DNA of 64,000 nt, from assembly GCF_028416635.1 (NCBI RefSeq), contig NZ_CP114013.1:5394001-5458000 (forward strand). Reading direction: 5' to 3'. The notes beneath the pieces were generated by a model. It did no database searches, was not told where the DNA came from, and worked only from the letters and a program-made list of their open reading frames with translations. The translations under genes and the position numbers were made by a program. Source of the DNA: Baekduia alba. GTDB lineage: Bacteria > Actinomycetota > Thermoleophilia > Solirubrobacterales > Solirubrobacteraceae. Positions within the stretch are counted from its first letter, which is position 1; each line of letters begins with the position of its first letter. Shown here in pieces: positions 51,900 to 63,897 of this stretch.

Positions 51900-52742
51900 T
51901 CACCGGCAGAGCGAGGACGCCAACACGGGGTTGCGCAGAATGCCGATGCCGGCGACCTCGGCCTCCACGACGTCGCCCGGCGCCAAGAAGCGCGGAGGCG
52001 ACATGAAGCCGCCGCAGCCCCACGGCGTGCCGGTGAGCAGCAGATCGCCCGGCTCGAGCGTGAACGAGCGTGAGCAGAAGGCGATCAGCTCGGCCACTCC
52101 GAACAGCATCTCCGCGGTACTGGAGTCCTGCACCGTGTCGTCGTTGACGCGCGTCCTCAGCGCCAGCGACTGCGGGTCGCCGAGCTCATCGCCAGTCACC
52201 ACGACCGGACCGATCGGGCCGAAGGTGTCGAGGCTCTTGCCTCGGATCCACTGACCGTCGGAGAACTGCAGGTCACGCGCAGAGATGTCGTTGGCGACCG
52301 TGTAGCCGAAGACGGCGTCGAGCGCTTCGTCGACGCTCACGTCGCGCGAGCGGCGACCGATGACGGCCGCGAGCTCGACCTCCCAGTCGACTTGCCGAGT
52401 CAGGGCAGGGTCGATGCGAATCGGCTCATCGGGCCCGATGATCGATGAGCGCAGCTTTGCGAACACCAGCGGTCGCTCAGGCCGCTCGAGGCCGGTCTCA
52501 CGGATGTGGTCGAGGTAGTTGAGCCCGATCGCCACGACGCTGCCAGGCCGCAGCGGCGCGCGCAGCACGGCGGAGTCGGGCGCGAGCGCCCCGGGCGCGA
52601 GCGCTGCCGCGCGCTCAGCGGGGTCGAGCGCGATCGCGTCGGCAAGCGTGAGACCCACGCCTCCCTGAACGAGCGCCCAGGAATCGCCTTGACCGACCGC
52701 GACGTGCGATGTGCCGTCGATCTCCAACGTTGCATACCGCAT
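51900..52742 (-). CDS. Fumarylacetoacetate hydrolase (FAH)-family protein
   Basis: 280 aa from the ATG at 52742. A small N-terminal domain is followed by the FAH fold: VVAIGLNYLDHIRETG, then VDWEVELAAVIGRRSRDVS with the two metal-binding Glu. NDISARDLQFSDGQWIRGKSLDTFGPIGP in blocks supplies the third acidic ligand, and DLLLTGTPWGCG ends the active site. The family includes acylpyruvate hydrolases, HpaG-type decarboxylases and isomerases of aromatic breakdown. It is the last gene of the molybdenum-hydroxylase cluster but has its own promoter region with a copy of the cluster operator just before the start. A late catabolic step is inferred. Confidence 0.9.
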   Translation of the reverse strand: MRYATLEIDGTSHVAVGQGDSWALVQGGVGLTLADAIALDPAERAAALAPGALAPDSAVLRAPLRPGSVVAIGLNYLDHIRETGLERPERPLVFAKLRSSIIGPDEPIRIDPALTRQVDWEVELAAVIGRRSRDVSVDEALDAVFGYTVANDISARDLQFSDGQWIRGKSLDTFGPIGPVVVTGDELGDPQSLALRTRVNDDTVQDSSTAEMLFGVAELIAFCSRSFTLEPGDLLLTGTPWGCGGFMSPPRFLAPGDVVEAEVAGIGILRNPVLASSLCR

Positions 52743-52903: not shown

Positions 52904-54280
52904 TCAGTCCGCGAGACCGCTCAGGACGAGCTCCCGTTCGTCGAGGACGGCAATCGCCTCGTCGTCGGAGTTCGACTCGCCCCAGTACGCGCGGTCGAAT
53001 CCCTCGATCTCCGTCGCCTCGGAGACGCGCAGGCCGCCGACCTTCTCGAAGAACAGCGCCATCAGGAGCGAGGAGACGCCGGCAAGCGCGACGATCGCCA
53101 GCACACCGATGGCCTGCCAACCCGGATTGATCTCCGCGTGGCGCAGCGCATAGTCGCCGGTCGCGCCGAAGTACCCCCCGGTCTTCGTGCCCCACTCGAT
53201 GAAGCCGCAGGCGATCGCGCCGACGACGCCGCAGCCGAGCCCGAGCGGCACCACCTTGGCGTCGTCGATGCCGAAGCGAAACGCGACCCGCCGCGTGAGG
53301 AGCGCGACCGGAGGGCCGAACAGGGCAACGATCATGATCACCCACGGATGAGCGATGTCGATCATCGTGCCGCTGATGACGATGCCGGCGATCGGTCCGA
53401 GCGCGACCCAGACCCACTCGCGCGTCCGGTAGGCGACGATCGTCCCCGAGAGCGCGCCGGCGGCGTAGGCGACGACCACGTTGATGAACGCGATGCCCCA
53501 GCCGCTGGAGGTCAGCGAGATGCCGAGGTAGCCCTGGCCGGGAACGTAGTAGCCGGAGCCGAGCACGAGCAGCGGCACCGCGAACAGGATCAACATGACG
53601 CCCGCGACCGCGAGCGCCTTGTTCGACGGCGCGGGGCCGATGCCGCGCGGGTCGGGTCGCAGCGAGCCGAGCCGCGGCTTGAGCCGCCAGTTGAGCACGA
53701 GCGCGAAGGTCCCGGCGAAGATGTAGAGCGGGAAGACGCCCTCGAGGTCGTGCACGCCGCGGTTGGTCAGCCAGGACGCGGAGCCCCAGCACAGGTAGCC
53801 GGCGAACGGCGACAGCACGAGGCCGACGACGAGCGCCATCGAGTACAGCGGCAGCGGCTTGATGCGTTCGAAGACGCTCGAGTGGATCAACGCCATCGTG
53901 GCCATCGAGAACGTCGCGAAGAAGACGACGAAGATCTGCTGCACGTCGGCGGACGGGATCGCGGCCGGATCGATGTGCCCGGCGAAGCTCGTCATGCCGC
54001 GGCCGCCGATCCAGAAGTCCCTGAGCGAGTCGCCGAGCGTCAGGCCGAACGCCTGGTAGAACTGCCACGCCCAGATGGCGTAGCCGACGACGAACGTCGC
54101 GAGACCGGCGATCAACGACGCGGCCAGCTTCTGCACGGCTGTGTCGAGCGAGTTCTTGCGCCGCGCGAGTCCCACGTCGACGAGCGTGAGCCCGAGCACG
54201 ATGAGGATGACCGACGCCGCGGCGACCGAGTACAGGATGTCCTCGGCAAAGAGCTGCGTCGTCGTCTGAAACTTGAACAT
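52904..54280 (-). CDS. Ammonium-transporter-family membrane protein lacking the twin histidines
   Basis: 458 aa from the ATG at 54280, with GGAGGAGG upstream. It has about eleven hydrophobic helices and Amt-like stretches: FERIKPLPLYSMALVVG, the CWGSASWL segment, and a C-terminus GLRVSEATEIEGFD typical of Amt cytoplasmic tails. The signature DFAGGTVVH of AmtB reads DLEGVFPLY here, so the first pore His is Tyr. The second His region (FGVHGVCG in AmtB) reads PLGLGCG, with no His. These residues carry NH3/H+ in Amt. The protein may therefore move a different substrate, such as an organic amine or the cluster's own substrate (inference). It lies 67 bp after the alpha/beta-hydrolase gene. Confidence 0.8.
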   Translation of the reverse strand: MFKFQTTTQLFAEDILYSVAAASVILIVLGLTLVDVGLARRKNSLDTAVQKLAASLIAGLATFVVGYAIWAWQFYQAFGLTLGDSLRDFWIGGRGMTSFAGHIDPAAIPSADVQQIFVVFFATFSMATMALIHSSVFERIKPLPLYSMALVVGLVLSPFAGYLCWGSASWLTNRGVHDLEGVFPLYIFAGTFALVLNWRLKPRLGSLRPDPRGIGPAPSNKALAVAGVMLILFAVPLLVLGSGYYVPGQGYLGISLTSSGWGIAFINVVVAYAAGALSGTIVAYRTREWVWVALGPIAGIVISGTMIDIAHPWVIMIVALFGPPVALLTRRVAFRFGIDDAKVVPLGLGCGVVGAIACGFIEWGTKTGGYFGATGDYALRHAEINPGWQAIGVLAIVALAGVSSLLMALFFEKVGGLRVSEATEIEGFDRAYWGESNSDDEAIAVLDERELVLSGLAD

Positions 54281-54347
54281 ATCCCTCTCCTCCTCCTTTG
54301 ACCTGTCACACTTCCCTGCACTCACCGACCGACCGGCCGGGCCCAAC

Positions 54348-55277
54348 TCACGCAGCCGTCGTGGTGTTCCTCGCTTCCCCTCGCGAGGCTGTTCGGGATC
54401 CACCTCCGGTCGTCGACGGATCCGGCAGGAAGTCGAGAACGGCGGCGTTGAAGGCGTCGGGCTGCTCGAACTGCGGCCAGTGCCCGGCGTCCTCGACGAT
54501 CGCCAGCCGTCCGCGCGGCAGCGCCGCGACCGCGCGCTCGGCGGCGTCGAGGCCGTGGACCGGATTGGCACGCGTCCACAGCACGAGCACCGGGGCCTCG
54601 ATGCGCGCGAGCGCCGCCTCGTCGATCTGCTGGGGCACGTAGCGCTCGGGCGTCAGCAGCGTGACGACGCGCCCGGCGATGCGCTGCCACCCCGGCTGAT
54701 CCCACAGGCGGCGGCGCAGCTCGACCAGCTCGTCGGTGACGGTCGTCGCGTCCGCGACGACCCATTCGAGCCGGCGCCGGATCAGCGCGCGGTCCAACGA
54801 CTCGACCGCCTGGGCGCTGCGCGCGACGAGCCCGGCGAAGGCCTCCCAGCCGTCGGCGCCGGCGACCGGCAGCCCGGCCATCGTGTTGAGCACCAGCGCG
54901 CCCACGCGGTCGGGCGCCTCGAGCGCCAGCCAGCACGCGATCCAGCCACCCAGGGACTGCCCGACGAGATCGGCGCGCTCGATGCCGAGGGCGTCCATCA
55001 GCGCGAGCACGTGACGCCCGTAGTCGGCGATGTCGTAGCCGCCGTCGGGCTTGTCGGTCAGCCCATGGCCCAGCAGGTCCGGCGCCACGACGCGCCGCCG
55101 GGTCCCGAGTGCCGCCAGGTTGCGAACGTGGTTCTCGGCGGACGCCTCGATGCCGTGCATCACGATCGCCGGCGGACCGTCGCCCGCCTCGAGGCAGCGC
55201 GTCCGGATGCCGCTGACATCACGGAAGCGCACCTCGAGTCCGAGCGCGTCGAGCCACAGCGACGGACCTGCGGTCAT
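54348..55277 (-). CDS. Alpha/beta-fold hydrolase, MhpC-like
   Basis: 309 aa from the ATG at 55277, 2 nt after the DUF59 stop. It has an oxyanion loop VMHGIEAS, the strand DLLGHGLTDKPDGGYDIADY, the nucleophile elbow VGQSLGGW and the catalytic His in EDAGHWPQFEQP. The form resembles C-C bond hydrolases of meta-cleavage pathways and the deformylase NicD. The usual acidic residue after the sixth strand (WGRxD) reads WTRAN, so the catalytic Asp is apparently Asn. Activity may be altered or use another acid. Its place in the cluster suggests ring-opening product hydrolysis. Confidence 0.85.
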   Translation of the reverse strand: MTAGPSLWLDALGLEVRFRDVSGIRTRCLEAGDGPPAIVMHGIEASAENHVRNLAALGTRRRVVAPDLLGHGLTDKPDGGYDIADYGRHVLALMDALGIERADLVGQSLGGWIACWLALEAPDRVGALVLNTMAGLPVAGADGWEAFAGLVARSAQAVESLDRALIRRRLEWVVADATTVTDELVELRRRLWDQPGWQRIAGRVVTLLTPERYVPQQIDEAALARIEAPVLVLWTRANPVHGLDAAERAVAALPRGRLAIVEDAGHWPQFEQPDAFNAAVLDFLPDPSTTGGGSRTASRGEARNTTTAA

Positions 55278-55279
55278 GC

Positions 55280-55696
55280 TCAGCGCTCCTTAGCGGCACG
55301 CGCGCTGCGGGCGAGGACCGCGGGCATCAGCGAGATGAGCTGACTGTGCGCCGGCTGACCGGCGCACGGCTGCCGGAAGCGCGGCGGCATCAGCCCGACC
55401 GTCTCGAGGTTGGCGCGCGCCTCGTCGGTCATGAGGTCCGGCGACCACGGGCGTCCCCGGTCGAAGTGCACGACCACGTCCTCCACGCCCTCGACCGTGC
55501 GTACCGCCGCGGTCACCTGCTCCGAGAACAGCTCCCAGAAGGGACAGCTCATCGACGTCAGGCTCAGACTGACCTCGACGCGCCCGCCTTCGATCTCGAC
55601 GCCCTGAAGCATGCCGAGATCGACGATGTTGATGCCGAGCTCGGGGTCGATGACCTCGCCCAGGATCTGTCTGACCTGCTCGGTGTCCACGCGCAT
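55280..55696 (-). CDS. DUF59/MIP18-family protein (PaaD/SufT-like)
   Basis: 138 aa. The domain opens VRQILGEVIDPELGINIVDLGML, the hallmark DPE(L/I)xxxxVxLG of this family, and continues VSLSLTSMSCPFWELFSEQV with the conserved Cys. A ~45-residue C-terminal extension contains further Cys (RQPCAGQ). Members assist Fe-S cluster assembly or delivery (SufT, PaaD). In this operon the obvious client is the 2Fe-2S subunit of the molybdenum hydroxylase, though that link is inference. It sits between the amidohydrolase and alpha/beta-hydrolase genes. Confidence 0.88.
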   Translation of the reverse strand: MRVDTEQVRQILGEVIDPELGINIVDLGMLQGVEIEGGRVEVSLSLTSMSCPFWELFSEQVTAAVRTVEGVEDVVVHFDRGRPWSPDLMTDEARANLETVGLMPPRFRQPCAGQPAHSQLISLMPAVLARSARAAKER

Positions 55697-55720: not shown

Positions 55721-57094
55721 TCACTCGGCGATCGGGTTGGCGCGGGTGCGCACGATCGGCATCGCCGGAGGCTCGCCGGCGCCCGCCGCGCTCACGACGT
55801 CGCGCGTCAGGTAGCCGTGCGTGTAGGTCATCGAGGACTCGTTCGACCACGACTCCAGGTCGCGGTCGACATCGACCACCTCGCCGTCGAGGATGATCGT
55901 CTCGATCCGCGCCGGGTCCTGGAGGACCGCGATGTCCTGCGACGGATCGCCGTCGACGACGAGCAGGTCGGCGAGCATGCCCGGCGCGACCCCGCCGATC
56001 TCGTTCTCCAGGTTGAGCGTGACGCCGGCGTTGTAGGTGGCGGCGGTGATCGCCTCGAGCTCCGTCAGGCCGCCGTACTTCATGAGCAGCTCCAGCTCCT
56101 TGGCGTGCCACTCGCCGTAGGGCGTCATCGCGAAGCCGGTGTCGGTCCCGACGACGAGCTTGACGCCTGCCGCGCGGCACATGTGGAGGCTCTCCGCGGT
56201 GCGCTCGAGCATCCGCTTCGAGGCCTCGACGATGAACGGCGGCGAGCCGATCAGGTCGCCGTACTCGGCCCACACCTCGAGCAGCAGGAGCGTGGGCACG
56301 AGCGGCGTCTGGCGCTCGGCGAGCAGCTCGACGGTGGACTCGGTCAGCAGGTTGCCGTGCATGATCCAGTCGAAGCCGGCCAGCACGGCGGCGCGCGTCT
56401 CGGCGTTCCCGCGCGCGTGGATGGTGCAGCGCTTGTTGAGCTGGTGCGCGAGGTCCGCGATCGTCACCAGCTCCTCATCGCGGAAGGACTGGTAGTCGCC
56501 GAAGGGGCTGTCGGCGAGCTTGATGAAGTCGACGCCGTTCTTCACCTGTCGCCGAACCTCGGCGATCATCGCGTCGAGGGTGTTGCAGCGGATGCCGATG
56601 CCGCCCTCGATCACGCCGGCGTCGTCGGGGTACCAGTCGGTCAGCCCGTTGCTGGTGGTGATGTAACGGCCGGCGGAGGTCATCCGCGGGCCCTTGATCC
56701 GACGCTCGGCGATGCCGTCGCGGATCGCGACGCCGATGAAGTAGCTGCCGCCCGGCTGCGAGATGCCGGTGACGCCGGCCGCGAGGACCTTCTGCACGTT
56801 CCACGCCGCTCGCAGCGTGCGGCCCTCGACGCTGGTGAAGATGTCCTGCTCCTCCTGCGTCATCGACTCGCCGTAGGTCATGTGGCAGTGGGCGTCGATC
56901 AGGCCGGGCATCAGCGTCTTGCCGCTTGCGTCGATGTGCACGGCGTCGGCCGGTCCCGGTTGCGCCGCGCCGTCCGTCGCCGCCGCCTCGACCGACTGGA
57001 TGCGGCTGCCCTCGATCACGACGTCGACTCCGCGCCGCGGCGCGTTGCCCATCCCGTCGATGACGTCGCAGTTGTGGATCACGATGGTGGTCAC
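55721..57094 (-). CDS. Amidohydrolase-superfamily enzyme
   Basis: 457 aa from the GTG at 57094, 16 nt after the GntR stop. Metal ligands are DAHCHM (HxH) after PGLI, Lys in DFIKLADSP, His in TIHARGNAET and IMHGNLL, and Asp in GTDTGFAMTP, followed by LTELEAITAATYNAGVTL and the terminal beta-sandwich (GVAPGMLADLLVVDGDP). This is the imidazolonepropionase/prolidase-like branch. It should hydrolyse a C-N bond in a cyclic or linear amide. In a cluster with a ring hydroxylase it is a strong candidate for ring opening of an N-heterocycle, but the substrate is not identifiable from sequence. Confidence 0.9.
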   Translation of the reverse strand: MTTIVIHNCDVIDGMGNAPRRGVDVVIEGSRIQSVEAAATDGAAQPGPADAVHIDASGKTLMPGLIDAHCHMTYGESMTQEEQDIFTSVEGRTLRAAWNVQKVLAAGVTGISQPGGSYFIGVAIRDGIAERRIKGPRMTSAGRYITTSNGLTDWYPDDAGVIEGGIGIRCNTLDAMIAEVRRQVKNGVDFIKLADSPFGDYQSFRDEELVTIADLAHQLNKRCTIHARGNAETRAAVLAGFDWIMHGNLLTESTVELLAERQTPLVPTLLLLEVWAEYGDLIGSPPFIVEASKRMLERTAESLHMCRAAGVKLVVGTDTGFAMTPYGEWHAKELELLMKYGGLTELEAITAATYNAGVTLNLENEIGGVAPGMLADLLVVDGDPSQDIAVLQDPARIETIILDGEVVDVDRDLESWSNESSMTYTHGYLTRDVVSAAGAGEPPAMPIVRTRANPIAE

Positions 57095-57110
57095 GCGTTC
57101 TGCACCCCTC

Positions 57111-57776
57111 TCATTCCGGCCCGTCGCCGTCGATGACATCGAGCATCCCGTTGACCACCCCTTGCAGGTGGTCGACGATCGCCGACTGCAGCTCAGCGTC
57201 GTCGCGTCGACGCAGGGAGTCGAGGATCCGGCGGTGGCCGCGCTGCGTCTCCTCGAGGTCGTGCGTCTTGAAGTAGATGCGGATGTACGGGTCAGACCGC
57301 CGGATGAGACCGTCGATGGTCTCCAGCAGGAACGGCCGGTCCGCCGCCTGGTACAGCCCCTCGTGGAACTCACGGTTCAGGGCGAAGAAGTTCGGGCTGC
57401 CGACCTGATCCATCGCGGACACGAGCGCCTCGAGGTGATCCAGGGCCTCGTCCGCCAGGTTCGGGAGCGCGAAGCTCGCCGCCAGCGGCTCGAGGACCGT
57501 GCGCATCTCGTAGCACTCGAGCACCTCTGAGCGAGACGGCGTGAAGACGGTCGGCGGATAGTTCGTGCGGCGCACGACGACGCCCTGGGCCTCGAGCGCC
57601 GAGATCGCTTCGCGGACCGGCGTGCGCGACACCCCGAGCTCGCGCGCGAGCTCGTCGATCCGCAGAACCGCACCGGGCTCGAGCTCGCCGTTGTCAATGC
57701 GATCGCGCAGCGTGCCGACGACCTGGTCGACGAGCGAGACGTTCTGCAGCGGGTGTACCGGGCTGCGTCGCGTCAT
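57111..57776 (-). CDS. GntR-family regulator, FadR/FCD subfamily
   Basis: 221 aa from the ATG at 57776, overlapping the stop of the small hydroxylase subunit (ATGA). The N-terminal winged helix has LRIDELARELGVSRTPVREAISALEAQGVV. The all-helical FCD domain (about residues 85-215) contains NREFHEGLYQAADRPFL and HRRILDSLRRRDD, with the His/Asp residues that bind metal or a carboxylate ligand. It lies inside the catabolic operon and is the only regulator in the cluster. It is the best candidate to bind the three repeated palindromes at 52.75 and 62.2 kb. Confidence 0.9.
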   Translation of the reverse strand: MTRRSPVHPLQNVSLVDQVVGTLRDRIDNGELEPGAVLRIDELARELGVSRTPVREAISALEAQGVVVRRTNYPPTVFTPSRSEVLECYEMRTVLEPLAASFALPNLADEALDHLEALVSAMDQVGSPNFFALNREFHEGLYQAADRPFLLETIDGLIRRSDPYIRIYFKTHDLEETQRGHRRILDSLRRRDDAELQSAIVDHLQGVVNGMLDVIDGDGPE

Positions 57777-58324
57777 GAGCCGCTCGCCACCGAGCGGGCC
57801 GCCCGCAGGCGCTGAGCGGCGTCGAGCGCCGCCTCGACGATCTTCTGATAGCCGGTGCAGCGACACAGGTTGCCGCGGATCGCCTCGCGGACCTCCTCAT
57901 CGGTGGGATCCGGGTTGCGGTCGAGCAGGTCGACCAGCACCAACAGCATGCCCGGCGTGCAGAAGCCGCACTGCACGGCGCCGTGGTCGCGGAACGCGGC
58001 CTGCAGCGGGTGCAGGGACCCGACGTCGACGCCGCGCGCCTCGACCGGCACACCGGCGCCGTCACCGAACGGCAGCAGCTCCTCGCGCGCCAGGCCCTCG
58101 ACGGTGGTGATGTGCGCTCCGTCGACCTGGAGGGCGAGGACGTTGCAGGACTTCACCGAGCCGCCGTCGACCAGCACGGCGCAGCAGCCGCAGCGCGCCT
58201 CCCAGCAGCCGGCATGCGTTCCGGTGAGCCCGGCCTCGTCGCGAATCAGGTCGATCAGCAGCGTGCGCTCGTCGACCTCCGCCTCGAACGGACGCTCGTT
58301 GATGGTTACCGACACGTGCTCCAC
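57773..58324 (-). CDS. Molybdenum hydroxylase small (2Fe-2S) subunit
   Basis: 183 aa from the GTG at 58324, 2 nt after the FAD-subunit stop. The plant-ferredoxin-type domain has GCWEARCGCCAVLVDGGSVKSC and the C-terminal helical domain CGFCTPGMLL and GNLCRCTGY, giving all eight Cys for two 2Fe-2S clusters. It passes electrons from the molybdenum centre to FAD. It is co-translated with the GntR gene. The CoxS/XdhC-type length is normal. Confidence 0.93.
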   Translation of the reverse strand: MEHVSVTINERPFEAEVDERTLLIDLIRDEAGLTGTHAGCWEARCGCCAVLVDGGSVKSCNVLALQVDGAHITTVEGLAREELLPFGDGAGVPVEARGVDVGSLHPLQAAFRDHGAVQCGFCTPGMLLVLVDLLDRNPDPTDEEVREAIRGNLCRCTGYQKIVEAALDAAQRLRAARSVASGS

Positions 58325-58326
58325 GC

Positions 58327-59193
58327 TCAGTCCCTCCCGTTGGTGGCGGCGGCAACGACGCGATACACGAGCACGGGCAGGACGTCGCGCTTGTAGCCGG
58401 CCATGATCATCGGATTTGCCAGCTCGTCGGGCAGCCCGTCGGACGCCCGGCTTCGAGCCATGGCCGCCAGATCCTCCTCGACGCCGCGGCCGACGAGCGC
58501 CTCTTCGACCGCCGTCAGGCGCGTGGGCACCGGACACACCGCCCCGCACGCGACGTTGGCCGCGACCACACGACCGGCGGCGTCGACATCGATCAGACAT
58601 CCCGCCGACGCGATCGCCGAGTCGAAGCGCCGCAGGCGGTGCTTGACGAAGCCCGACCGCACCGTGGGCGCGCTGGCGGGGAAGTGGATGCGCGCGAGCA
58701 CCTCGTCGGGCGCGAGGTCGGTCTTACGCGGCCCGTGCAGGAAGTCGGCGGCCGCCAACCGGCGCGTGCCGCGGCTGGAGGCGAGCTCGAGCTCCGCGTC
58801 GCCGAGCACCGCGGCGAGGGGAAAGTCGAAGGCCGGCTCGGCCTGGCACAGCGCGCCCCCGACGGTGCCCATGCGCCTGACCGGGACGTCGGCGATGTCG
58901 CCCGCGATCTCGGGCAGGATCGCATGCGCCCCCTTGGGCAGGTCATGCGTGTGGAGCGTCCAGTACGTCGTGGCGGCGCCGAGCGTCAGCGTGCCGTCGT
59001 CCGCGTAGCAGATGCCGCGCGTCTCGGGCACGTCCTGCAGCGACACGAGGACGCTCGGCCGCTCGCGGCGGTCCTTCATGCCCAGCAGCAGGCTCTGCCC
59101 GCCGGCGATCACGCACGCGTCGCCGGCGTTCCCGGCCAGGACCGCGGTCGCCTCCTCCAACGAGCCGGGACGGACATAGCGGAACGGCTTCAT
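58327..59193 (-). CDS. Molybdenum hydroxylase medium (FAD) subunit
   Basis: 288 aa from the ATG at 59193, with GGGAGG upstream and overlapping the large-subunit stop (ATGA). The FAD-binding domain has VIAGGQSLLLGMKDR and RRMGTVGGALCQAEPAFDFP, the two phosphate-binding signatures of the family. The C-terminal domain follows from about residue 175 (RSGFVKHRLRRFDSAIASAG). It takes electrons from the small subunit and passes them to NAD, quinone or oxygen. The acceptor cannot be told from sequence. Confidence 0.93.
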   Translation of the reverse strand: MKPFRYVRPGSLEEATAVLAGNAGDACVIAGGQSLLLGMKDRRERPSVLVSLQDVPETRGICYADDGTLTLGAATTYWTLHTHDLPKGAHAILPEIAGDIADVPVRRMGTVGGALCQAEPAFDFPLAAVLGDAELELASSRGTRRLAAADFLHGPRKTDLAPDEVLARIHFPASAPTVRSGFVKHRLRRFDSAIASAGCLIDVDAAGRVVAANVACGAVCPVPTRLTAVEEALVGRGVEEDLAAMARSRASDGLPDELANPMIMAGYKRDVLPVLVYRVVAAATNGRD

Positions 59194-61649
59194 CTGCTCG
59201 CCTCCCCGTGGCCCACGCCGCGCCACTCGTGCGGCCCGGGGGCGTCGGCGACGTCGTAGGGGTACGTGAGGTGGTCGACCCCGCGTCGCTCCTTCTCGCG
59301 CAATGCGGCGAGCACGTGGTCGGGCGTGATCGGCAGGATCGTGAAGCGGATGCCGATCGCGTCCTCGATCGCGTTGGCGACCACCGCCGGCGGCTGCGCG
59401 GTCGCCGACTCGCCGGCGCCCTTGCGTCCGCCGGGCACGACCCGAGACGGGGCCGGGATCTCATGCAGGTTGGAGAGGTCCGGCAGGTCCGGCGCGTACG
59501 GCGCGGCGTACGTGGCGAAGCTCGGGTTGAGCATGTGGCCCTCGTCGTCGTAGCGGAGGCCCTCGCCGAAGACCATGCCGAAGCCGTGCAGGAACCCGCC
59601 GTGGTGCTGGCCGTCGACGATCAGCGGGTTCACGACCACGCCCGTGTCGTGCACCATCGCGTAGTCGACGATCTTCCAGATCCCGGTCTCGACGTCGACG
59701 TGGACCCGCCCCGCGTGCGCTCCGCCCGAGTAGGTGACGCTGATGTTGCCGTAGCTCTCGTCGGTCAGCAGATCGGTCGGCGAGTCGTACGTGGCCGTGG
59801 CCTCGAGCGAGCCGGGCTCGAAGCCCTCCGGCAGCGAGTGCGTCGCGTAGCCCGCCACGCCGGCCACCTCGGCGATCGACATGCCGGAGTTGGGCGAGCC
59901 CTTGACGAAGACGCGGTCGCCCCCGACCTCGAGGTCGTCCGGGTTGACCTCCAGCAGGTGCCCGGCCAGCTGCAGCATCCTCTCCCGCACCCGCTCGGAG
60001 GCGGCCTGGACGGCGGCACCGAGGATCGCGGCGCCGCGGCTGCCCCAGGTGCCGAGCCCGAAGACCGTGGTCTCGGTGTCGGAGCTGCGGACCCGGATCT
60101 TGTCGAAGTCGACGCCAAGGATGTCGCCGACGATCTGCGAGACCATCGTCTCGTGGCCCTGGCCGTGCGGCACGTCGCTCGAGTGGAGGGTGACCGTGCC
60201 GTCGGTCTCGATCTTCATCCGCACCGACGAGACGTCGGTGTCGACCGACGGGTGCCGGCAGCTCGTGTGCTTGAGCGCGATCGCCATGCCCAGGCCCTCG
60301 CCGGGGCGCCGGTTGGCGCGGTGCTCGTCCCAGCCGATCGCCTCGGTCACCTTCTGGATGCAGGCGTGGATGCTGGTGCTGTCGATGTAGTGGCCCATCG
60401 GGCTCGTCCGCGGGCACTCCTCGGCCCGCGGCACGTTCTTCATCCGCAGCTCGGCCGAATGCATCCCGAGCTCCTTCGCGGCCATCTCGACCAGCGACTC
60501 CATCGGGAAGATCTGCTGCGGCACCCCGAACGCGCGCAGCGCCCCGCCCGACGTCGTGTTCGTGTGGACCGCGTAGCCGTCGATGTAGACGTTGGGGATC
60601 GGGTAGGCGGCCAGCCCGATGTGGGTGCCGAGCGGCAGGATCTGGTTGCCCCACATCGAGACGGCGCCGGCGTTGTGGACGATGCGGTCGCGGTAGCCGA
60701 GGATCATCCCGTCCGCGGCGACGAACAGCTCGGCGTAGCGGACCTGGTTGCAGCGCGCGGTGGTGGCGCGGAACACGTCGGCGCGCGACAGCACGAGCTG
60801 CACCGGGCGGCCCAGCATCATCGCGAGGACCGAGGCGATCACCTCGTGCTGGAACAGGTCGGCCTTGGAGCCGAAGCCGGCGCCGATGTCGTAGGCCATC
60901 ACGCGGATGCGGTTGGCCGGGACGTGCAACGACTCGGCGAGCAGGTCGCGCAGCAGGTACACCGACTGGGTCGAGCTGTAGACCGTCAGGTGTCCCTCGC
61001 GGGTGTCGTAGTCGGCGATGCACCCGTGCACCTCGAGCGCTGCGCCATGCGGGCGGTTCGTGACGAACGTGCCGCGGACGTGGACCGCGGCCTCGCGCTC
61101 GGCTTCCGCGATGTCGCCGATGCGGGCCTTGTAGAGGTCGAAGACGTTGCCCTCGCCGCGCGGGTAGTCGATGTGCTCGATCACCTGCGGGGCGCCGGGC
61201 TCCATCGCCGCCTCGACGTCGACGACGGCGGGCAGGATCTCGTAGTCGACCTCGATCGCCTCCAGCGCGTCGGCCGCCAGGTGCTTGCTGTCGGCCACCA
61301 CGGCGGCGATCTCCTGGCCCTCGTAGTAGACCTTGTCCAACGCGAACGGCAGCCGCTCACCGACGGGAAGCGCCTGTGTCTGATGGCCCCAGGCGACGAC
61401 CTTGCCGTCCAGGTCACGGCCGGTGAGCACGGCGTGCACGCCGGGCATCGAGCGGGCCCGCTCGACGTCGATCCCGCGGATCCGGGCGTGCGCGTGCGGG
61501 CTGCGAAGCACGCTCGCGAAGAGCGTCCCCGGCAGCTTGATGTCCTCGAGGAACCGCGCGCGGCCGGTCAGCAGCCGCATGTCCTCCTTGCGCCGCATCG
61601 GGCGTCCGATCAGCGGGCCTGAGTGCGTTTCGGTCTCGACCGTGGCCAT
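59190..61649 (-). CDS. Molybdenum hydroxylase large (Moco) subunit
   Basis: 819 aa. The N-terminal hammerhead domain starts GRARFLEDIKLPGTLFASVL. Moco-binding segments include GAGFGSKADLFQHE, HTNTTSGGALRAFGVPQQ, SSDVPHGQGHETMVSQIV and GTWGSRGAA. The catalytic Glu lies in GGRKGAGESATAQPP. The active loop reads ALRAFGVPQ, not the AYRCSFR of true CO dehydrogenase, so this hydroxylates a carbon, often next to nitrogen in a heteroaromatic ring, using water. Transcription starts upstream at the RidA-like gene 11 nt before it. Substrate is unknown. Confidence 0.94.
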   Translation of the reverse strand: MATVETETHSGPLIGRPMRRKEDMRLLTGRARFLEDIKLPGTLFASVLRSPHAHARIRGIDVERARSMPGVHAVLTGRDLDGKVVAWGHQTQALPVGERLPFALDKVYYEGQEIAAVVADSKHLAADALEAIEVDYEILPAVVDVEAAMEPGAPQVIEHIDYPRGEGNVFDLYKARIGDIAEAEREAAVHVRGTFVTNRPHGAALEVHGCIADYDTREGHLTVYSSTQSVYLLRDLLAESLHVPANRIRVMAYDIGAGFGSKADLFQHEVIASVLAMMLGRPVQLVLSRADVFRATTARCNQVRYAELFVAADGMILGYRDRIVHNAGAVSMWGNQILPLGTHIGLAAYPIPNVYIDGYAVHTNTTSGGALRAFGVPQQIFPMESLVEMAAKELGMHSAELRMKNVPRAEECPRTSPMGHYIDSTSIHACIQKVTEAIGWDEHRANRRPGEGLGMAIALKHTSCRHPSVDTDVSSVRMKIETDGTVTLHSSDVPHGQGHETMVSQIVGDILGVDFDKIRVRSSDTETTVFGLGTWGSRGAAILGAAVQAASERVRERMLQLAGHLLEVNPDDLEVGGDRVFVKGSPNSGMSIAEVAGVAGYATHSLPEGFEPGSLEATATYDSPTDLLTDESYGNISVTYSGGAHAGRVHVDVETGIWKIVDYAMVHDTGVVVNPLIVDGQHHGGFLHGFGMVFGEGLRYDDEGHMLNPSFATYAAPYAPDLPDLSNLHEIPAPSRVVPGGRKGAGESATAQPPAVVANAIEDAIGIRFTILPITPDHVLAALREKERRGVDHLTYPYDVADAPGPHEWRGVGHGEASR

Positions 61650-61660
61650 GCGCCTAGCTC

Positions 61661-62071
61661 CTAGCTCCTGTCGGCGACCCAGGCGCCGTCGCGCAGCGCC
61701 ACCGCGTTGATCTCGATCTTGCAGCCGGGCACCACCAGCCCGGAGACCTCGACCGCCGTGGACGCCGGCGGATGCTCGCCGAACAGCTCCCGCCGCAGGT
61801 TCGCGATGCGCGGGATGTCGCCGATGTCGAGCAGGAAGACGTTCACCTGAACCACGTCGCGCAGCGTCGCCTCGGCCTCCGCGAGCACGCGCTCGATGTT
61901 GCGGAACACGCGGCGGGCCTGCGCCTCGACGTCGTCGCCACCCTCGACGGCGCCGCGCTCGTCGAGCGGCAGCTGCCCGGAGACGAAGACCAGCGGACCA
62001 GCGAGGAAGCCGGGGGAGAAGTGACTGTCGAAGACCGGCTCGCGCGGGTCGGTGAACAACGCGCGCCTCAT
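61661..62071 (-). CDS. RidA-family protein without the conserved arginine
   Basis: 136 aa from the ATG at 62071. RidA/YjgF fold landmarks are FLAGPLVFVSGQLPLD, ERVLAEAEATLRDVVQVNVFL and CKIEINAVAL. In RidA proper the motif PARSxVxV carries the Arg that supports enamine/imine deamination; here the segment reads HPPASTAVEV, without that Arg. This is typical of other Rid subfamilies whose reactions are less well known. As the first gene of the operon it may process an unstable enamine intermediate of the pathway. Confidence 0.88.
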   Translation of the reverse strand: MRRALFTDPREPVFDSHFSPGFLAGPLVFVSGQLPLDERGAVEGGDDVEAQARRVFRNIERVLAEAEATLRDVVQVNVFLLDIGDIPRIANLRRELFGEHPPASTAVEVSGLVVPGCKIEINAVALRDGAWVADRS

Positions 62072-62277: not shown

Positions 62278-62895
62278 ATGCCCTTCGAAGTTCCGCCCCT
62301 CCCCTACGCCTACGACGCGCTCGAGCCCCACGTCGACGACCAGACGATGCGCCTGCACCACGACAAGCACCACCAGGCCTACGTCGACAAGGTCACTGCA
62401 GCGCTGGCGGGAACCGAGCACGCCGAGCGGCCGATCGCCGAGCTGATCGCCGACCTTGGCTCGGTCCCCGAGGAGAAGCGGGCAGCGGTCCGCAACAACG
62501 GCGGCGGCCACCTCAACCACACGCTGTTCTGGGAGTCGATGAGCCCGACGGGCGGCGGTGAGCCGAATGACGCGCTGGCCGCTGCGATCGACGCGGCCTT
62601 CGGCTCGTTCGCGGCGTTCAAGGAGCAGTTCGAGGCGGCCGGCATCGCCCGCTTCGGCTCCGGCTGGGTCTGGCTGGTCGCCGACGGCGACTCGCTCGCG
62701 ATCGTCACCACCGCCAACCAGGACAACCCCGTCTCCGACGGCCGGCAGCCGCTGCTCGGCAACGACGTCTGGGAGCACGCCTACTATCTCAGCTACCAGA
62801 ACCGCCGGCCCGAGTACCTGAAGGCCTGGTGGAATGTCGTCGACTGGGCGAAGGTCGGAGCGCGCTACGAGGAAGCGACGGCTTCGCGGAACTAA
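62278..62895 (+). CDS. Superoxide dismutase, Fe/Mn family
   Basis: 205 aa from the ATG at 62278, with AAAGGAG upstream. The N-domain opens [31 protein letters not shown], carrying the first metal His in separate conserved blocks. The second His is in [11 protein letters not shown], and the C-domain has GSGWVWLV, then [20 protein letters not shown] with the Asp and His ligands. It converts superoxide to H2O2 and O2. Its place divergent from a flavin- and molybdenum-containing oxidoreductase operon, sharing two operator sites, suggests protection against superoxide from that enzyme. Confidence 0.94.
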
Positions 62896-62901
62896 CCGCA
62901 C

Positions 62902-63897
62902 ATGGTGCGCGAGCAGCTCAGAGACGGCCACGGCCGGGACATCGGCGACGTCCGCGTCTCCGTGACCGACCGCTGCAACTTCCGCTGCCAGTACTGCATG
63001 CCGGCGGACGGCCTGCCCTGGCTGGAGCGGGAGGAGATCCTGAGCTTCGAGGAGATCGGCCGGCTCGTCGGCCTGTTGGCCTCGATGGGTGTCGGCAGCG
63101 TGCGACTGACCGGCGGCGAGCCGCTGGTTCGCCGCGACCTGCCGCGCCTGGCCAAGCTGCTGCGCTCGACGCCGGGCGTCGAGGAGCTGGCGCTGACCAC
63201 CAACGGCTACCTGCTCGAACGCCACGCTGCGGCGCTGGTCGGCGCCGGGGTCGACCGCTTCAACGTCTCGATCGACTCGCTGCAGCGCGACCGCTTCTAC
63301 GCGTTGACCCGGCGCGACGCGTTGCCGCAGGTCCTGCGCGGGCTGGCGGCGCTGGCCGCGCTCCCGCAGGCGCACCCGGTCAAGGTCAACGCGGTCGGCA
63401 TCCGCGGCTTCACGGAGACCGAGGCGATTCCCTTCGCCCGCTTCGCCCGTGAGCACGACTACGAGGTCCGCTTCATCGAGTTCATGCCGCTCGACGCCGA
63501 CCGCAGCTGGGACGCCGGCCAGGTGCTCACTGGTGAGGAAATCCGGGCCGCGATCGAAGCCGAGCACCCGCTCGTCCCCTGCCCGCGTGAGCGCCACTCG
63601 ACCGCCCGCGTCTACCGCTTCGCCGACGGGCGCGGCCGGATCGGCTTCGTCAACCCCGTCTCCGAACCGTTCTGCGCGGACTGCAACCGGATTCGTCTCA
63701 CCGCCGACGGCCGGCTCCGAACCTGCCTCTTCTCGCTCGGCGAGACCGATCTGCGCGGACCGCTGCGGGAGGGAGCCGACGACGACGAGCTGGAGCGGAT
63801 CGTGCGCGCGGCGGTCTGGCGCAAGGAGCTCAAGCACCGGGTCAACGAGCCCGGGTTCGTGCAGCCGGAGCGAACGATGTCGGCGATCGGCGGATGA
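62902..63897 (+). CDS. moaA: GTP 3',8-cyclase (molybdenum cofactor biosynthesis)
   Basis: 331 aa, starting 6 nt after the sod stop. The radical-SAM cluster Cys25, Cys29 and Cys32 are in TDRCNFRCQYCMPADG. The SAM-binding GGEP is in RLTGGEPLVRRDL. The C-terminal second 4Fe-4S site is FCADCNRIRLTADGRLRTC, and the chain ends in the conserved GG. It makes the first intermediate of molybdopterin. Position in the cluster supports cofactor supply for the neighbouring hydroxylase. The stop overlaps the next start in ATGA. Confidence 0.95.
   Translation: MVREQLRDGHGRDIGDVRVSVTDRCNFRCQYCMPADGLPWLEREEILSFEEIGRLVGLLASMGVGSVRLTGGEPLVRRDLPRLAKLLRSTPGVEELALTTNGYLLERHAAALVGAGVDRFNVSIDSLQRDRFYALTRRDALPQVLRGLAALAALPQAHPVKVNAVGIRGFTETEAIPFARFAREHDYEVRFIEFMPLDADRSWDAGQVLTGEEIRAAIEAEHPLVPCPRERHSTARVYRFADGRGRIGFVNPVSEPFCADCNRIRLTADGRLRTCLFSLGETDLRGPLREGADDDELERIVRAAVWRKELKHRVNEPGFVQPERTMSAIGG

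Follow-up and report, generated by a model that had tools for sequence, protein, structure and literature searches.

What does a protein of the ammonium transporter (Amt) family carry when both histidines of its pore are missing? This question is raised by a gene of Baekduia alba (contig NZ_CP114013.1, positions 5,394,001 to 5,458,000; this whole stretch of 64,000 nucleotides is called the window below), which encodes an Amt-fold membrane protein without the twin histidines of E. coli AmtB (His168 and His318). The protein belongs to a branch of the family that lacks both residues, here termed His-less. That this branch exists and is tied to organic-nitrogen catabolic clusters is well supported. 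With a probability of roughly 0.6, judged from sequence comparison, we consider that the branch takes up a small organic nitrogen compound in place of ammonium. The features of the gene and its pore codons are as follows, in window coordinates.

52904..54280, minus strand: Amt-fold membrane protein without the twin-histidine residues, 458 amino acids (Pfam, MAFFT, hhalign, AlphaFold2 model)
54281..54300, minus strand: ribosome-binding region of the AGGAGG-type Shine-Dalgarno kind (sequence)
53723..53725, minus strand: codon TAC of Tyr186, at the AmtB His168 position (MAFFT and hhalign)
53237..53242, minus strand: codons of Gly347 and Leu348, at the AmtB His318 position, register uncertain by one residue (MAFFT, hhalign)
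53750..53752, minus strand: codon of His177, invariant in 94 of 94 His-less rows and adjoining Asp178 (AmtB Asp160)
53882..53884, minus strand: codon of His133, present in 91 of 94 His-less rows

The reading frame runs from an ATG at 54280 to a stop codon at 52904 and comprises 458 codons with zero internal stops. Residues 18-436 match Pfam Ammonium_transp at 1.7e-34, with 119.7 bits where the cut-off is 23.2, and no BCCT family is among the three Pfam families listed for the protein at E ≤ 1. The score against NCBIfam TIGR00836 (amt) is 126.4 bits, far below the cut-off of 343.3; other His-less members reach 119.6 (Ruegeria), 145.6 (Mycolicibacterium) and 140 (locus L105) with the same model. 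The AlphaFold2 model (mean pLDDT 93.4, pTM 0.91; a model of the Ruegeria His-less Amt gave a pLDDT of 89.5) superimposes on AmtB (2ns1) with Z 45.6 and a root-mean-square deviation of 2.4 Å over 386 residues. AmtB is thus among the best solved matches, together with Sd-Amt1 (Z 46.9), A. fulgidus Amt-1 (Z 45.2) and Ks-Amt5, and each of the 50 matches listed by Foldseek is an Amt, Mep or Rh entry. Profile alignment with AmtB by hhalign gave E 6e-47. Urea transporters appear far under the Amt rows, with Z about 13. Since the best structural matches are Amt proteins, the protein is of Amt fold, but its pore residues are altered. The sequence-only reading of this DNA had proposed that the fold and the GLRVS tail remain, and both do, GLRVS being kept near the C-terminus. 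The genome also holds a second, ordinary Amt (C1:4691358-4692584, 353.6 bits), which scores 386.1 with TIGR00836, above the cut-off.

The same reading had placed a tyrosine at the first pore histidine and no histidine at the second. Both substitutions are borne out: MAFFT and the profile-profile alignment of hhalign agree on Tyr186 at AmtB His168, and AmtB His318 falls on Gly347 (MAFFT) or Leu348 (hhalign), the two methods being one residue apart. The segment DAKVVPLGLGCGVVG around this position contains no histidine in either register, and neither sequence nor profile alignment brings a histidine from elsewhere in the chain to the pore positions. The changes extend further into the pore, with Val235 and Leu238 standing for AmtB W212 and F215, which form the S2 site and the inner part of the Phe-gate. 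The residues that we take to make up the S1 recruitment site are kept, F107 as Phe124, W148 as Trp165, S219 as Ser242 and D160 as Asp178, and F103 is kept as well. For the terms S1, S2 and Phe-gate, as for the S2 residues, we follow PMC10433425. Overall, the outer recruitment site is retained, and the replacements affect the inner site together with both histidines and the inner half of the Phe-gate.

This arrangement is not peculiar to the window protein. An alignment-based query for relatives gave 135 matches, of which 80 were kept; a single-sequence query of genome contigs returned 55 pattern matches and zero relatives. Among 182 aligned Amt rows, 81 have both histidines, 94 have Tyr168, three have Glu168 and two Asp168 together with His318, and two (L019, L068) are fragments or misread. 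None of the 94 Tyr168 rows, which represent 92 distinct proteins and 77 groups at 90% identity, has His318; the position is occupied by Phe (44), Ala (33), Thr (9), Gly (6), Val (1) or Leu (1). Trp212 is found in 69 of 81 canonical rows and in 0 of 94 His-less rows, which mostly have Leu, Ile, Ala or Val instead, and Phe215 in 81 of 81 compared to 3 of 94. At the outer site, the His-less rows keep Phe103 (92/94), Trp148 (92/94) and Asp160 (94/94), with Phe (70), Tyr (20), Trp (3) or Ala (1) at position 107 and Cys (70), Ser (22) or Asn (2) at position 219; Asp35 is conserved in 90 of the 94. The loss of W212 and F215, the conserved His133 and His177 and the second, ordinary Amt of the genome go beyond what the sequence-only reading had noted.

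Other departures from the canonical pore were observed alongside. Three actinobacterial rows (L169, L198, L199) have Glu at the first pore histidine and keep the second, and two (L022, L029) have Asp there. Natural Glu variants of the twin-histidine Amt/Mep proteins thus resemble the present branch in the change at the first pore histidine; they differ from it in that the three Glu168 rows keep His318, W212 and F215, all of which are changed in the branch. A second unusual group has both histidines, but Ala103, Phe212 and Cys219 in the rows checked (L253:22861-24234, L236:9213-10574, L149:11575-12939, L120:19946-21310 and L012-L018, with L236 joined by similarity alone). In Ponticoccus and Ruegeria this group adjoins dimethylamine monooxygenase and N-methylglutamate genes, and it may represent a methylamine-type transporter. 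In one genome (G450, L068/L070), a His-less Amt is split into two overlapping frames, either by a sequencing error or because the gene is broken.

The sequence-only reading had called for a phylogeny, and the His-less rows indeed form one group. The tree built for this holds 142 rows, of which the 85 with Tyr168 all fall on one side of a branch with a support of 100 in the Shimodaira-Hasegawa-like approximate likelihood ratio test (SH-aLRT). Tyr168 is therefore not a chance feature, since it occurs in 94 of 182 rows and these lie together on this side. The tree comes from a quick search, and its midpoint root serves the drawing only; long branches meet there, as the program warned, and we therefore claim one group and not its exact sister. 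Its ordinary Amt rows combine a selected set with 22 random draws from the remainder. His-less rows dropped from it are L019, L068 (split gene, misread at 168), L002 (a copy of the window), L209 (partial L149), L135, L144, L146, L141, L151, L131 and L061. Subclade letters were assigned from the tree, and loci outside it were assigned through identity or because they share the record of a tree row (L072, L073, L075, L076, L079, L082, L084, L085, L089, L091, L097-L099, L101, L105, L114, L131, L135, L139, L141, L143, L144, L146, L151, L242-L248 and the window locus). The subclade of the window protein (A; 20 rows, SH-aLRT 100) comprises Actinobacteria, Salinicola, Phytohalomonas and Acetobacter. 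Named members of the whole branch include Geodermatophilus, Planosporangium, Pseudonocardia, Frankia, Mycolicibacterium, Ruegeria, Leisingera, Roseovarius, Paracoccus, Methylophaga and Methylophilaceae. His-less proteins are rare in the sampled genomes, with 17 of 232 in the order of the window genome and 23 of 399 sampled from its class (both at 1e-30), and 4 of 396 in a sample of the phylum (1e-25). All 16 genomes tested that have a His-less member hold, in addition to it, an ordinary Amt of at least 333 bits.

In order to compare the genomic surroundings, 24 marker proteins were searched in the fetched flanks of 91 His-less and 29 ordinary Amt loci, the latter including two Glu168-type loci and a long-branch Amt. 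Part of the His-less records are short, the shortest having 4.4 kb, and a match of any kind is less likely in these. A gene caller based on the GC content of third codon positions was used for 17 loci and the window; markers outside the window came from an earlier caller, which misread the strand in several high-GC loci. GlnK was found in the flank of one of the 91 His-less loci compared to 19 of the 29 ordinary loci (Fisher 6e-14). The sole GlnK-linked His-less locus (L131) also carries an ordinary Amt, and the window locus is without a GlnK match. Methylamine and pyridine markers were found at none of the 29 ordinary loci.

The markers differ between the subclades. In subclade D, which has Phe at position 318 with one exception (Leu), 27 of 44 loci have a methylamine marker, that is, trimethylamine monooxygenase (Tmm), trimethylamine N-oxide (TMAO) demethylase (Tdm), GmaS, MgsC, DmmA or a TMADH-like protein. 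Curated cut-offs are passed by the Tmm beside the Ruegeria member (828.9 compared to 675) and the Tdm beside the Roseovarius member (1181.7 compared to 1100). On a plasmid of Paracoccus sp. MA, an 'ammonium transporter' is preceded by genes for a regulator and a binding protein, by Tmm (82% to the Ruegeria marker) and Tdm (63%) and by those for dimethylamine monooxygenase, and it is followed by MgsC and a GmaS-like gene. All three plasmid records with an 'ammonium transporter' among methylamine genes carry the His-less pore signature. In subclade A, a NicX-like, isochorismatase-like, phosphoenolpyruvate (PEP)-utilising or HpaB-type marker is present at 18 of 20 loci, the exceptions being Acetobacter (a 7.5-kb record) and the window; the NicX-like 2,5-dihydroxypyridine dioxygenase marker scores 323.5 bits against 7cn3. 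Subclade C has diaminopentanoate-dehydrogenase-like genes at 5 of 5 loci. Subclade B is more mixed, with NAMPT or ribose-phosphate diphosphokinase at 3 of 14 loci, pyridine markers at 3 of 14 and a methylamine marker at 1 of 14; eight further, unplaced loci (E) have pyridine markers (3/8) and NAMPT or the diphosphokinase (2/8).

Closer views of single loci add to these counts. The five subclade-C loci (L103, L104, L102, L108, L109) have two diaminopentanoate-dehydrogenase-like genes nearby, and L103 also Fe-S and FAD-oxidase genes, which makes an amine pathway of an undescribed kind possible. At L105 (6879-16208), L094 and L101, the His-less Amt lies beside NAMPT, ribose-phosphate diphosphokinase and genes that by eye resemble ribokinase and LacI, and this suggests a link to nicotinamide salvage. 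In Antrihabitans (L138), a RidA-family protein precedes the Amt and a RutA-like monooxygenase follows it (342.7 bits, cut-off 498.3).

Molybdenum hydroxylase subunits, whose clusters the sequence-only reading had proposed to test for a link with a His-less clade, occur in subclade A (12/20), B (4/14) and E (2/8), and are absent from C (0/5) and D (0/44). The tie to these enzymes as such is thus not upheld, and the common thread is the catabolism of organic nitrogen. The proposal of a substrate-switched branch tied to a catabolic cluster stands in its branch and its linkage, and a switch of substrate would be the best explanation for both.

Whole-genome co-occurrence is less circular than the proximity of markers. 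Among 149 genomes around Ruegeria, the subclade-D Amt is present in 5 and Tmm in 34, and each of the 5 also has Tmm (p 4.9e-4; 2.1e-3 when the query genome is left out); in 3 of these 5 the Amt lies within 3 kb of Tmm. Among the 232 genomes of the window's order, a NicX-like gene is present in 11, of which 10 belong to the 17 with a His-less Amt (p 2e-12).

Being a separate branch that often lies beside genes for trimethylamine or pyridine breakdown, the His-less proteins probably import small organic nitrogen compounds. The retained outer aromatic site together with the altered inner pore would fit a larger organic amine or heterocycle. In such a mechanism, the outer cage (F107/W148) would still attract the amine or nitrogen heterocycle, and the inner pore, where Tyr186 is combined with either a small or an aromatic side chain at 318, might pass it whole without stripping off an ammonium proton. 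Transport would be directed inward, and cytosolic enzymes would then consume the imported compound. For the branch at large we lean, somewhat beyond even odds, towards a widespread, undescribed group of Amt proteins in Actinobacteria and Proteobacteria in which the whole machinery of ammonium deprotonation (twin histidines, W212 and F215) has given way to other residues and whose substrates are organic amines and nitrogen heterocycles. Its members would comprise a trimethylamine permease, permeases for pyridinols, proteins linked to nicotinamide and, in the window, a permease for a nitrogen heterocycle.

The main alternative is that ammonium or ammonia still passes through these proteins, perhaps in a channel-like leak by which the ammonium set free in the breakdown of nitrogen compounds is released or kept in balance. 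In AmtB, the histidines are thought to pass on the proton after deprotonation of NH4+ (PMC7447429, PMC3647058). Single His-to-Ala variants are channel-like and let hydrated ammonium and K+ pass (PMC7447429), which would suit a leak, as would the retained outer ammonium site and the ammonia that is generally released in the breakdown of such compounds. However, double-histidine mutants bind ammonium without transporting it (PMC7447429) and lose the transport of methylamine and ammonia in vivo (PMC3647058). AmtB fails without both histidines, and a natural His-less branch is therefore unlikely to be an ordinary ammonium transporter. The near absence of GlnK from the His-less loci also argues against this alternative, and the release of ammonium alone does not explain why the neighbours are specific to subclades. 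We therefore regard this alternative as unlikely. Compared with the known Amt/Mep/Rh transporters (AmtB, Sd-Amt1, A. fulgidus Amt-1), the window protein shares the fold along almost its entire length (Z about 45-47), the outer site and the GLRVS tail; it differs in lacking both histidines, W212, F215 and a GlnK neighbour, in its catabolic context and in its score below the NCBIfam cut-off.

The gene lies in a minus-strand block of ten genes, of which the other nine are listed here in the order of the block.

61661..62071, minus strand: RidA-family protein, first gene of the block (PF01042, 6.8e-28)
59190..61649, minus strand: molybdenum hydroxylase, large molybdopterin subunit (PF20256, PF02738)
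58327..59193, minus strand: molybdenum hydroxylase, FAD subunit (PF00941, 1.5e-39; scanned as 58327-59226)
57773..58324, minus strand: molybdenum hydroxylase, 2Fe-2S subunit (PF01799, 1.7e-30; scanned as 57773-58600)
57111..57776, minus strand: GntR/FCD regulator (PF07729, PF00392; scanned as 57111-57866)
55721..57139, minus strand: amidohydrolase, start codon uncertain (PF01979, 1.4e-26; scanned as 55721-57373)
55280..55696, minus strand: FeS_assembly_P (PaaD-like) protein (PF01883, 5.3e-23)
54348..55277, minus strand: alpha/beta hydrolase (PF00561; best solved match the meta-cleavage product hydrolase 1iun, 4.8e-29)
51900..52742, minus strand: fumarylacetoacetate-hydrolase (FAA) family enzyme, last gene of the block (PF01557, 6.8e-75)

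At seven of the nine junctions the genes overlap or are separated by no more than 24 bases, and co-transcription of the Amt gene with the block is likely, as judged from this spacing. A locus of Geodermatophilus sabuli (L080) has the order HpaB-type monooxygenase, fused alpha/beta hydrolase-RidA protein, FAA hydrolase, His-less Amt, so that RidA, alpha/beta hydrolase, FAA hydrolase and Amt are common to both. Enamines and imines are the substrates of RidA-type proteins, and this points to a ring fragment that contains nitrogen. Divergent from the block and upstream of it, the window also holds a superoxide dismutase family gene (62278-62895) and MoaA (62902-63897; 360 bits, cut-off 284); MoaA makes the cofactor that a molybdenum hydroxylase needs.

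Several observations weigh against the import of organic nitrogen compounds. The comparison of neighbours is partly circular because the markers were chosen for their recurrence beside these genes, and seven marker-supplying loci match themselves. The type of residue 318 and the type of neighbour both follow the tree, and their match is therefore not independent evidence. Besides GlnK, the 29 ordinary loci showed only a molybdenum hydroxylase (L224) and a meta-cleavage-hydrolase match (L213), and 17 of 44 subclade-D loci are without any methylamine marker in the fetched flank. The Amt is not required for the use of trimethylamine, since 29 of 34 Tmm genomes lack the subclade-D protein, and neutral trimethylamine may also diffuse into the cell. 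All p values are too favourable because the genomes are related, and those of the co-occurrence are too small since several genomes share a genus. Other transporters are at hand: in Salinicola (L083), a set of ABC-transporter genes lies, by eye, downstream of the locus, and the Ruegeria TMAO ABC transporter genes tmoXWV (SPO1548-1550) are numbered next to tmm. Within the window block, the widest gaps, 67 and 161 bases, are those before and after the Amt gene. Neither a NicX-like nor a PEP-utilising protein was matched near the window, no NicX-like gene was matched at 1e-60 in the window genome, and the amidohydrolase of the block, used as a probe, matched only its own genome (1 of 146 in the family).

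For the window itself, these results exclude the 2,5-dihydroxypyridine or 3-hydroxypyridine route, as NicX and a PEP-utilising neighbour are missing. The neighbours in subclade A resemble the 3-hydroxypyridine (3hpd) cluster of Ensifer adhaerens HP1 in their molybdenum hydroxylase subunits, CoxG, PEP-utilising protein, NicX-like dioxygenase and isochorismatase-like hydrolase; that cluster is said to contain a PEP-utilising component, and anchoring by CoxG has reportedly been proposed for it, as related in a citing paper. The window block, without the PEP-utilising protein and NicX, therefore does not encode the 3hpd pathway. Since it has no pyridine markers, its genome no NicX-like gene and its amidohydrolase no counterpart beyond its own genome, the substrate is a guess, namely an N-heteroaromatic or lactam-type compound that would be broken down by the ten-gene block.

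Against this background, the protein might also be a sensor for an organic amine rather than a transporter, like Ks-Amt5 and Sd-Amt1. These two are among the closest solved structures, and a GntR/FCD-type regulator is found in the window block and also, in the three plasmid records, adjoining the Amt or close to it. However, the protein carries no fused signalling domain (of its 458 amino acids, the Amt domain alone exceeds its Pfam cut-off), GntR/FCD regulators are cytosolic, and Pfam assigns no transporter family to the other nine genes of the block. We consider a sensor improbable. Slightly less probable still is an exporter of a toxic intermediate or product of the pathway: the gene lies inside a catabolic block and the direction of transport is unreadable from sequence, but uptake is what bacterial Amts are known for, and the family is not known to have a drive for export, both of which count indirectly. 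That the protein is a decayed, functionless Amt, as the loss of residues said to be essential might imply, is highly improbable given its intact frame, its strong ribosome site, the wide distribution of the branch over Actinobacteria and Proteobacteria and the 24 invariant columns among 58 proteins of the branch at a mean column identity of 47%. Alignment A3 used 57 and alignment A4 39 of 82 frames, each together with the window protein; frames interrupted by a stop codon (L072, L073, L117, L131) were omitted, as were many near-copies.

Uptake of an organic nitrogen compound, our preferred explanation, can be set against systems already described. The tmm-linked Amt of Ruegeria pomeroyi (L136) belongs to the same His-less branch and is 33-35% identical to the window protein, from which it differs in Phe at 318 and in its methylamine neighbours. 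At this locus, a periplasmic-binding-type protein (Peripla_BP_6; L136:12231-13565) lies between a regulator and Tmm beside the Amt, and ABC genes on the far side of Tmm resemble, by eye, the TMAO transporter. The second Ruegeria Amt (L236) has twin histidines and lies between dmm and mgs/gma genes. Amt genes of methylamine clusters have been labelled 'ammonia transporter' (PMC5520151), 'ammonium transporter' (PMC7574528) or 'unspecified ammonium transporter' (PMC4744692), labels that may stand for either of the two types. The characterised trimethylamine transporter TmaT, a sodium symporter with 12 helices and aromatic boxes (PMC11708041), does the job that we propose for the His-less methylamine subclade. 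It is not the same protein, as TmaT belongs to the BCCT family and the window protein to the Amt family. In the literature examined, a TMAO transporter is assigned in Ruegeria, and TmaT is the only trimethylamine transporter with a shown function. The accessible open-access literature, which was the scope of the search, to the exclusion of subscription papers, contains no report of a His-less Amt branch or of an Amt-type transporter for trimethylamine or pyridines, and in the available text of a R. pomeroyi transporter mutant screen 'trimethylamine' appears only within 'trimethylamine N-oxide'.

Overall, 92 distinct proteins without either histidine contradict the need for the twin histidines that has been stated for such transporters, and the branch offers natural proteins for asking what these histidines do for selectivity. 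Our results also suggest that some 'ammonium transporter' genes beside methylamine genes, for example those of the three plasmid records, are mislabelled. Methylated amines occur throughout the sea, where marine bacteria use them as a source of carbon and nitrogen, and they feed aerosol formation (PMC5520151, PMC7574528). If the proposed function is true, the trimethylamine permease of marine methylamine users would be a protein that is now annotated as an ammonium transporter.

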